Assembly (NCBI GenBank): GCA_018711625.1 | Contig: DVID01000004.1 | Location: 1-50,243, forward strand | Source of the DNA: Candidatus Limicola stercorigallinarum | GTDB lineage: Bacteria > Actinomycetota > Coriobacteriia > Coriobacteriales > Coriobacteriaceae | DNA: 50,243 nt | Direction of reading: 5' to 3' | Part shown: in pieces, positions 2,674-32,110 of the stretch | Layout of the letters: each line of letters starts with the position of its first letter | Position numbering within the stretch: position 1 is the stretch's first letter | Made by a program: the position numbers and the translations under genes | The notes under the pieces: generated by a model | What the model was told of the DNA's origin: nothing | What the model saw: only the letters and a program-made list of their open reading frames with translations | Database searches by the model: none

Positions 2674-3672
2674 ATGCGCAGGATACGTCGTGCCTTGCTA
2701 GGTGGAGAGCTGGAGCAAGAGGTTCTTGAGAGCGCCGAGCGCGCAGGGTTTGTGAGGATCGATGACCCGCTGCGGCAATACTCTTCGTTTGTGCTGCGCC
2801 TGTTGGCGGCTACGGTTATCGCCACGGCAGGCGTTGCGGCAGACTCTGCCACCACCATCATTGGCGCCATGCTGGTGGCACCGCTTATGTCGCCCATGTT
2901 AGGCACGGCGCTTGCCGTCGCCACGGGGCGTCCCCGCGAGACCGCGCGTACGTTTTTACTGACGGTGCTTGGCATGGTGGGGGTGGTTGTGGTGTCCATT
3001 GGGGTGACCGCTATCATCCCCGTTGATGTGGACATGAGCACCAACACCCAGGTGCTCGCCCGTATCTCGCCGCGCCTTGTGGACCTCATCATCGCCCTGG
3101 CCTCGGGGTTTATTGCGGCGTTGGCTTCCATTCGGCGCGACATTCCCGATGCGGTTCCCGGCGTTGCCATCTCCGCCTCCATCGTGCCGCCGCTTTGCGT
3201 GGTTGGAGCGGCCTTGTATGAGGGCGCGATCTCTGCAGCCCTGGGCGCGCTCCTCCTCTTTGTCACCAATTTCCTTGCCATTCAGGTGATGGGTGGAGCT
3301 TTGTATCTCGCCGTGGGCCTGGGCTCGCGCACCTTTTCGCTCATCGAGGGCAAGGCGCGTGAGATATGGTACCTTGCGGTGGCGCTGTGCAGCCTTGCTG
3401 TGCTTGGCGTGCTTGCCGCCACGAGCTTTGGGGTTGTTCATGCCAATGAGCAGCTACGTTTGGCGCAGGATACCGTGGTTTCTTGGATCGATGGGTACGA
3501 CTATCGTGTGTCGCGCTTTGAGTTTGAGGACGGTGCGCTCCGGCTTGAGATTGCAGGCACCGACCGTGCTCCTTCGGCAGAGCGTCTGAACGGTGAACTT
3601 CTCCGCGCTGGTGTGGAGCTCAAGGAGCTTTCGCTTGCGGTGGTTGAGGAGCATCGCATCGAGAACCGCTGA
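2674..3672 (+). CDS. DUF389 (TIGR00341) integral membrane protein
   Basis: The 332-residue protein matches the DUF389 family: a core of about seven membrane segments from residue 40 to 260 with the signature TIIGAMLVAPLMSPMLG and the following ALAVATGR, then SIRRDIPDAVPGVAISASIVPPL in two neighbouring parts, and a soluble C-terminal domain of about 75 residues (WIDGYDYRVSRFEF onward). No biochemical function is established that I know of. The start has GGGAGG seven bases upstream. The last codons, ENR-stop, are the beginning of the first unit of the 40-bp tandem repeat at 3663-3782, so the C-terminus may have been set by repeat formation. Confidence 0.85.
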   Translation: MRRIRRALLGGELEQEVLESAERAGFVRIDDPLRQYSSFVLRLLAATVIATAGVAADSATTIIGAMLVAPLMSPMLGTALAVATGRPRETARTFLLTVLGMVGVVVVSIGVTAIIPVDVDMSTNTQVLARISPRLVDLIIALASGFIAALASIRRDIPDAVPGVAISASIVPPLCVVGAALYEGAISAALGALLLFVTNFLAIQVMGGALYLAVGLGSRTFSLIEGKAREIWYLAVALCSLAVLGVLAATSFGVVHANEQLRLAQDTVVSWIDGYDYRVSRFEFEDGALRLEIAGTDRAPSAERLNGELLRAGVELKELSLAVVEEHRIENR

Positions 3673-3782
3673 CGGGCGCTGTGGATCGGTAGTGGGAATC
3701 GTGAACCGCTGACGGGCGCTGCGAACCGGCGGAGGGAATCGTGAACCGCTGACGGGCTTCACTGGCCGCTGGCGGACGTCCG
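3663..3782 (+). repeat. Three tandem 40-bp repeats overlapping the DUF389 stop codon
   Basis: GAACCGCTGACGGGC begins at 3663, 3703 and 3743, exactly 40 bases apart. Units 1 and 2 also share the next GCT and the final GGGAATCGT; unit 3 diverges in its second half. The first unit supplies the last coding bases and the TGA stop of the DUF389 gene. Confidence 0.85.
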
Positions 3783-6699: not shown

Positions 6700-6733
6700 C
6701 GGATGAAATGAACCCGTCCCCATCCGTCCCGTC
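6700..6733. repeat. Intergenic repeat related to the GGGGACGGGTTCA family
   Basis: The strand complementary to ATGAAATGAACCCGTCCCC reads GGGGACGGGTTCATTTCAT, which resembles the repeats at 19440-19483 and 24696-24787. A weaker copy (GGATGAAGCGACCCCGG) lies 40 bases upstream. The rest of the 326-base gap 6516-6841 holds the promoter listed next and nothing else I recognise. Confidence 0.4.
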
Positions 6734-6755
6734 CACTCACTCGGCCGATGCTTGC

Positions 6756-7204: not shown

Positions 7205-7219
7205 GCGCTCCTTAGGGAG

Positions 7220-7303
7220 ACGATGATCATCTGGCGCTCCCAGCAAGCGTCCCCCGTTGGTGGTACCCCCTTGAGTGTCTCCTGCAGGCTTGCCAGATGA
7301 TGA
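7220..7303. repeat. Long-range inverted repeat downstream of the NifX-like gene
   Basis: GATGATCATCTGGC at 7220-7233 pairs with GCCAGATGATGATG at about 7290-7303 (ten perfect pairs plus flanks) around a 56-base loop. Just before it CTCC-TTAG-GGAG forms a short hairpin. No U-tract is seen, so a terminator role is doubtful. Confidence 0.5.
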
Positions 7304-7309
7304 TGGTCC

Positions 7310-7518
7310 GTGATTTTTCGTGGCCGTGGTCAAAAAGGTCGCCGAGTGTGTACTCTGGCGGCGTCCCGGGGCACCAGATGGTGCCTCGTCCCGCCTGGAA
7401 GGGGCAAAATACGGCCTTTCGGCGCTTCCGGATGCGCTCGTCAGCGCTTCAGGGAGCCCCGGCGGACGGCGAAAGTACACACTCGACGACCTTTTTGACC
7501 ATCGGCTCGAAAAATTGC
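7310..7518. mobile_element. 209-bp palindromic element with about 45-bp terminal inverted repeats, copy 1
   Basis: The left end (7310-7354) contains GGTCAAAAAGGTCGCCGAG and TGTGTACT; the right end (7474-7518) is its inverted counterpart with CTCGACGACCTTTTTGACC. The outer 22 bases on each side (ATTTTTCG...GTGGTC against GACCAT...CGAAAAAT) also pair with some mismatches. The interior is about 119 bases with shorter hairpins. A second copy of exactly the same length, with conserved ends and interior words, lies at 31902-32110. No protein gene and no clear target duplication are visible. This fits a MITE- or REP-like element; open frames on both strands inside it are products of the palindrome. 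Confidence 0.75.
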
Positions 7519-7637
7519 GACAGCGGTCGGCCGGGGTGGGGCTCACCATCCGGGTCGTGGCGTCCGGGCGTCGGCCGGCCACGCCGCCGCGATGCAGAAG
7601 AAGAAGTCCGAGGGGGTTTGCCGGCGTGTGTCATAAA

Positions 7638-7666
7638 TTGGTGTCTCCCTAGGTATGAGGTACTGT
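7638..7666 (+). promoter_or_regulatory. Predicted promoter of the sirohaem operon
   Basis: TTGGTG at 7638-7643 and TACTGT at 7661-7666 with a 17-base spacer, about 80 bases before the start of the chelatase-dehydrogenase gene. Both boxes are imperfect. No cobalamin riboswitch box was found in the 230 bases between the palindromic element and the gene. Confidence 0.35.
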
Positions 7667-17040: not shown

Positions 17041-17147
17041 GGTGTTGTGTGTATGTCTCCCCGCTTCAGACAGTCCTGCGCAAGACGGAGATGCCACTGG
17101 CATCTCCTTTGCGTGCGGAACTCGCGGGGAGACATGCACACAACACC
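17041..17147 (-). promoter_or_regulatory. 107-base cruciform in the leader of serA
   Basis: Arms of 24 bases at 17041-17064 and 17124-17147 (GGTGTTGTGTG...TCTCCCCGC) pair with one mismatch that is a G-U in RNA. Between them GGAGATGCC / GGCATCTCC (17087-17095, 17099-17107) forms an inner stem, and CCTGCGCAA / TTGCGTGCGG partly pairs. It ends 15 bases before the serA start. It may be a regulatory RNA structure or a small palindromic mobile element. The rest of the gap to serC (17148-17331) shows nothing else clear. Confidence 0.65.
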
Positions 17148-19441: not shown

Positions 19442-19483
19442 ATGGGTTGGTTGGGGACGTGTTCGTTTCAACCCATTTCCTTG
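19440..19483. repeat. Intergenic inverted repeat of the GGGGACGTGTTCGTTT family
   Basis: AAATGGGTTG at the left and CAACCCATTT at the right pair around a loop containing GGGGACGTGTTCGTTT. The left arm starts in the stop codon of the phosphoesterase gene. It shares words with the element at 24696-24787. Confidence 0.6.
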
Positions 19484-24656: not shown

Positions 24657-24695
24657 GACGCCCTCCTCACCAAGCGGCTTGCTTCTCCATTGTAG

Positions 24696-24787
24696 ATGGG
24701 TCGGATGGGGACGGGTTCAAAATGACCCATTTTCGTTTTGCCCCATCCATCCCGCCAATGGGGCAAAACGAACACGTCCCCATTTGA
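24696..24787. repeat. Nested inverted repeat of the GGGGACG / GTTTTGCCCC family
   Basis: Perfect 15-bp arms TTCGTTTTGCCCCAT (24732-24746) and ATGGGGCAAAACGAA (24758-24772) sit inside a second pair, GGATGGGGACG and CGTCCCCAT, and ATGGGTC/GACCCAT. Shared words occur at 6700-6733 and 19440-19483, pointing to a dispersed intergenic family. Confidence 0.7.
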
Positions 24788-24837
24788 CCCAAGTAAGTTA
24801 AGGGTAACTTGTGGAGGAGTGATGAAGTTCACCTATG

Positions 24838-31901: not shown

Positions 31902-32110
31902 GCAATTATTCACGCCGTTGGTCAAAAAGGTCGTCGAGTGTGTACTCTGGCGGGGCCCCGCGGTCCCAGGCAACGTCAGATCCCGCCTAAAGAGGTCCGA
32001 AAATGGCCTTCCGGTGCCTCTGAGCGCGGCCGGCGGCGCCGGAAGAGGCCCCGTCGGGCGGAGAAAGTACACACTCGGCGACCTTTTTGACCACGGCAGA
32101 GAAAAATTAC
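31902..32110. mobile_element. 209-bp palindromic element with about 45-bp terminal inverted repeats, copy 2
   Basis: Same length as copy 1 at 7310-7518. The left arm 31902-31946 contains GGTCAAAAAGGTCGTCGAG and the right arm 32066-32110 contains CTCGGCGACCTTTTTGACC. Outer AATTATTC/AAAAATTA segments also pair. Interior words such as CTCTGGCGG, CCCGCCT and GGCCTT are shared with copy 1. It lies between the ThiY and ThiZ genes of the thiamin transport operon. Confidence 0.75.

Follow-up and report, generated by a model that had tools for sequence, protein, structure and literature searches.

The 50,243-nt window of Candidatus Limicola stercorigallinarum analyzed here carries two members of an established dispersed family of elements, characterized by near-invariant inverted arms, an invariant spacing between these arms and drifted interiors. 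Our leading reading, offered tentatively and drawn from sequence comparison, is that of a MITE-like dispersed element that maintains two protein-recognition sites in phase, the most likely protein being a site-specific recombinase that acts in trans. The combination of identically spaced sites with drifted, sometimes reversed interiors suggests that a protein still recognizes the pair and can flip the interior.

A sequence-only reading had drawn attention to two palindromic segments at 7310–7518 and 31902–32110. Both are indeed 209 bases long and lie in register at a constant offset of 24592. Their inverted ends are real, each segment containing an inverted pair of the 27-mer TGGTCAAAAAGGTCG(C/T)CGAGTGTGTAC; such pairs are expected 0.00 times by chance, which rules out chance palindromes. 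The 1.96-Mb genome contains 19 occurrences of this arm, four of them within the window; none would be expected by chance in the whole genome. The 19 arms are spread over 10 contigs and form eight complete inverted pairs (on C11, C22, C23 (twice), C26, C27, C35 and C49) and three half copies with a single arm (on C21, C37 and C44); copies are named after their contigs, the two in the window being C23a and C23b. In 8/8 complete pairs, the start-to-start distance of the arms is 148 bp, so that the further copies in the genome share the inner length of those in the window. All copies, complete or half, are intergenic, short, dispersed and without coding capacity, and the notion of a defined element is thus strongly supported. 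Arm columns are 96–98% identical between copies and all differences are transitions, with base changes in 3/108 positions of orphan arms versus 1/416 of paired arms (p ~0.03). The arm contains no obvious pair of inverted half-sites. The arms offer the reading frame MVKKVAECVL...YTLGDLFDH on either strand, but a coding element was rejected, as the frame in copy 1 runs into a stop shortly inside; we take this frame to be incidental to the inverted repeat.

The window contains further repeats: a 40-nt unit (ATCGTGAACCGCTGACGGGC...) present three times in tandem at 3658–3777, a second dispersed motif, TGAACCCGTCCCCATCC / GAACACGTCCCC, in inverted arrangement at 6709–6736, 19443–19477 and 24692–24791, which is unrelated to the element, and a 24-nt inverted repeat, GGTGTTGTGTGTATGTCTCCCCGC, at 17041–17147 (96% complementary, 59 nt apart).

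Table 1. Coordinates of the two element copies in the window, and the tyrosine recombinases of the genome.
Feature	Position	Strand	Basis or remark
Whole copy 1 (C23a), ~439 bp including TA flanking both ends	7213..7651	.	inverted ends, homology
Copy 1 inverted end TAGGGAGACGATGATCATCTGG	7213-7234	+	
Copy 1 B-side end	7213..7237	+	23/25 to family end consensus; background best 13-15
Copy 1 left arm, recognition-site-like 27-mer TGGTCAAAAAGGTCGCCGAGTGTGTAC	7327..7353	+	genome arm search
Copy 1 interior, drifted, fixed length	7354..7474	.	majority orientation relative to flanks
Copy 1 right arm, inverted, with C-to-T variant	7475..7501	-	genome arm search
Copy 1 A-side end TAGGGAGACACCAATT	7651-7636	-	1 mismatch to A-end pattern
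Copy 2 (C23b), outer limits	~31757 to before 32198		no recognizable right end
Copy 2 inner 209 bp	31902..32110	.	
Copy 2 left arm, C-to-T variant	31919..31945	+	adjoins A-type flank
Copy 2 interior, inverted versus own outer flanks	31946..32066	.	-47 bits leave-one-out
Copy 2 right arm	32067..32093	-	adjoins B-type flank
XerD-like tyrosine recombinase	C49		
XerC-like tyrosine recombinase	C4		
Tyrosine recombinase, 309-aa	C24		in type I restriction locus
Third Xer-like tyrosine recombinase	G000:C19:8940-9857		below XerC and XerD cut-offs

Between the arms, sequence and length behave very differently. The interiors are homologous between copies, with pairwise identities of 37–74% (mean 53%; shuffle means 0.28–0.31), certain of them being alignable only once reversed. 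The interiors of C23a and C23b, described beforehand as diverged but alignable, match at 63–64% without gaps, where 300 shuffles never exceeded 41%. Their length is the same in 8/8 copies, and MAFFT requires only a compensating pair of one-base gaps in two of them. The segments outside the arms come in two types, A and B, and vary in length between copies (B: 114, 112, 113, 110, 114 and 123; A: 150, 151, 108 in C26 and 159). Non-modal lengths are found in 7/10 outer segments versus 0/8 interiors (exact p ~0.004, an approximate value because some A-end assignments are weak matches). That the outer lengths vary and the interior length never does is what we take as the strongest evidence for selection on the distance between the arms. 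The constraint on this length presumably reflects the helical phasing of the two arms, 148 bp corresponding to ~14.1 turns at 10.5 bp per turn.

The interiors have also been turned around. In the window, the two interiors share the same orientation and the outer flanks have opposite orientations. In six copies, the A end of the interior adjoins flank A; in C23b and C49, it adjoins flank B. The best of 128 possible orientation assignments flips exactly these two copies and scores 513.5 bits, compared with 447.9 without flips and a maximum of 407.5 with shuffled flanks. Leave-one-out orientation scores are −47.0 bits for C23b, −22.0 bits for C49 and +25 to +41 bits for the other copies. As the interiors of C23b and C49 are reversed relative to their own flanks, recombination between the arms must have occurred at least twice, and we regard historical inversions at the arms, as read from comparing copies within one genome, as established. 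In a half copy from a sister species (G065), a flank of type B adjoins an interior end of type A, and this copy therefore also reads as flipped. In C23a, C23b and C37, the C-to-T variant of the arm lies on the flank-A side irrespective of interior orientation, and the bases just inside the arm move together with the interior; judging from these few cases, the crossover would fall within the inner half of the arm.

The 209 bp initially noticed represent only the inner part of the element, which measures ~400–440 bp in full. Flank homology past the arms stops ~110–123 bp away on the B side and mostly 150–160 bp away on the A side, with 108 bp in C26. The elements end in degenerate, inverted, transposon-like sequences of the form TA followed by GGGARACRCTGATTATCTGG (also given as TA followed by GGGARACRCTGATTATCTGGCGC); together with the flank homology, these delimit copy 1 as listed in Table 1. 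B ends match the consensus at 18–23 of 25 positions in six copies, against background maxima of 13–15, and A ends are clear in C23a and C27 and weaker in C26 and C37. TA-flanked inverted ends are seen in C23a, C26, C22 and C49. The TA, a candidate target-site duplication that often lies inside CTAG or TTAG, is present at both ends in C23a and C26 and at one end in others; no precise empty site was identified for comparison. A search for an autonomous parent with matching ends, which the sequence-only reading had envisaged, covered the three genomes of the genus and viral contigs and, at the stringency applied, returned none.

Within the family (67 genomes), only the two other genomes of the same genus (G065 and G066) have related pairs or half copies that are convincing; the check for the arm pattern was additionally run over 150 genomes of the order. 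G066, Collinsella sp. An2, has two pairs with the arm TGGTCAAAAAGGTCACTGAGGTAGTTTTT, spans of 186 and 185 and spacings of 159 and 158, that is, 148 plus one helical turn (158–159 bp corresponding to ~15.1 turns). Its arms have diverged, retaining their outer half; the geometry of the pair is kept as well. The interiors (46–47% GC) are similar neither to each other nor to those of Ca. Limicola stercorigallinarum, and the shared part therefore consists of the arms and their geometry. No recognizable transposon-like ends were seen at these pairs.

At the site orthologous to that of copy 2, the genes for an NMT1/THI5-type binding protein and an ABC ATPase are ~24 bp apart in Collinsella sp. An2, and the element is absent from this intergenic region in G065. 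The junction that harbors the C35 copy, between genes we take from their translations to be tmk and holB, is compact in both relatives. The element was either gained in this lineage or lost twice. The C44 half copy lies at the edge of a 1.49-kb stretch that is 99.4% identical to G065, which has no arm there; this stretch (L019:1-1492, L126), with a TetR-like regulator, ends a few bases from the half copy. The exact arm was found nowhere else in prokaryotes. A looser inverted-pair pattern matched Collinsella sp. An2, and its remaining matches were unrelated, among them four of identical length in Bacteroidota that look like one coding region. No similar plasmid or phage sequence was found, and a plasmid or phage element was rejected on these grounds. 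The literature searched contained nothing on the element. In another genus of the family, locus L061 of G034 has a different palindromic repeat at ~1479–1560 with AAACTCGGTGCACTTTTTCAAACTCGG, which is loosely arm-like.

We propose that this genus-restricted intergenic element probably spread as a non-autonomous transposon, and that its maintained part would be the inverted pair of 27-bp sites in a fixed helical register. The protein most likely to recognize these sites would be a site-specific recombinase provided in trans, able to pair both of them and to invert the ~121 bp in between; both the binding of a protein to the arms and its nature as a recombinase are what we infer. The interior sequence would then be nearly free to drift and its length would not, because two sites at such a short distance must face each other on the helix. 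The inversions themselves are less specific, as 45-bp inverted repeats can also invert through homologous or template-switching recombination. A description as a short site-pair module, with phased, invariant inverted sites around a free, replaceable spacer of fixed length, dispersed by a MITE, inverted by a recombinase in trans and devoid of a promoter in the invertible segment, is possible but doubtful.

The genome encodes four tyrosine recombinases (Table 1) and no serine recombinase above the cut-off, and no recombinase gene was seen beside any copy of the element. The third Xer-like protein is a candidate only. It is found in 3/3 arm-bearing species versus 5/58 other family genomes searched, a weak co-occurrence because the three species belong to one genus; its gene is not linked to the element, and its surroundings revealed no inverted repeats. 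Its versions in G065 and G066 (L160, L161) are 99.4% identical, as against 57–75% for those XerC/XerD-like orthologs that were compared, and the gene was therefore probably transferred recently; in several genomes, it lies near contig ends. The C24 recombinase resides in a type I restriction-modification locus (G000:C24:14000-21857, L153) with several partial hsdS genes and long inverted repeats of 87, 68 and 48 nt, which is probably an hsdS shufflon. We set this protein aside as the enzyme of the element, as it is likely the HsdS invertase and has no ortholog in G066.

Other explanations account for parts of these observations. A plain MITE family, moving still or recently, would use the arms as subterminal transposase-binding sites; arms would be conserved solely because a copy with defective arms fails to move, interiors would differ through the divergence of their source lineages, and flips would stem from occasional homologous recombination between arms. 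The MITE proposal of the sequence-only reading has gained TA-flanked, transposon-like ends in four copies, empty orthologous positions wherever these were examined in sister species, and a count of 11 copies, whole or half, in one species against few in its relatives. It leaves unexplained, however, why the interior length is fixed while the outer segments vary; moreover, conservation is far lower at the extreme ends than in the internal arms, no partner element with these ends was found in the genus or among viral contigs, and the pairs of Collinsella sp. An2 have no recognizable ends, so that we judge a plain MITE to be unlikely, if a serious contender. We find it improbable that the arms were distributed by a MITE and then co-opted as a paired operator or an architectural module, in which a regulator or nucleoid protein bridges them in phase and loops the DNA. 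Conserved arms, a near-integer-turn spacing in two species, an exclusively intergenic location and a dispensable interior sequence would all be expected of such a module, but interior inversions would not; the genes on either side of a copy may be co-directional, convergent or divergent, and they show no common theme.

A structured RNA had also been suggested; in the form considered here, the arm helix would close it and its fold would keep the length constant, which is in our estimation very unlikely. The fold of the interior does exceed column-shuffled, re-optimized alignments on one strand (z −2.4, 0.013; 0.10 on the other), and its predicted structure has more pair types than the shuffles. 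In the first run, the covariation term of the consensus fold was unfavorable. Against an RNA, the arm helix has no compensatory change and a C-A mismatch in one copy, the held-out G065 homolog does not fit the predicted structure (14/27 pairs, P 0.22), single interiors fold no better than shuffled ones, the interiors of G066 are unrelated and no Rfam family matches. Interior inversion would, in addition, move the fold to the opposite strand.

Among known systems, the invertible promoters of Bacteroides fragilis have a common inverted-repeat consensus and are served by Mpi, a single master invertase acting in trans. The element resembles invertons, such as the promoter family treated in PMC4747536 and PMC8375218, in having many short intergenic segments with the same inverted repeat genome-wide and evidence of inversion; in C23b and C49, inverted repeats bound an inverted segment. 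Unlike these invertons, its pair sits inside a transposon-like element, its segment length is strictly constant despite heavy drift, its inversion is known from copy comparison rather than from a population, and no promoter was recognized in the two interiors scanned. No sigma-70-type promoter was found in the interiors of the window copies, with the proviso that promoters of the class may differ, and a switch function is therefore without a sign of output.

MITEs such as Correia/NEMIS and other TA-target families are likewise small, multi-copy and intergenic, with inverted ends. The element shares these traits, has TA in several copies and is missing at orthologous sites of relatives, but differs in its degenerate ends versus nearly invariant internal arms, its fixed inter-arm spacing and the lack of a parent. 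REP/BIME and ERIC are intergenic palindromic repeats as well, yet a REP-like identity does not fit, given the longer arms (~45 nt), the exact 148-bp register, interiors diverged to ~50% and the restriction to one genus. Among the genes inspected in the neighborhood of the copies, no REP-associated tyrosine transposase was recognized. Finally, terC of Bacillus subtilis is an inverted pair of Ter sites and, like the element, places two inverted repeats at a set distance, protein-bound in terC and putatively so here. The spacing differs, and with eight pairs spread over the genome, a paired fork-trap role is hardly possible.

If the recombinase reading is correct, eight loci in the genome of this gut actinobacterium would share a single enzyme that acts on all of them simultaneously. 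The constant length of an otherwise drifting spacer would then be a natural experiment on the distance and phase of recombination or binding sites, and a transposon-like element would have served as a route for seeding the genome with ready-made invertible segments.
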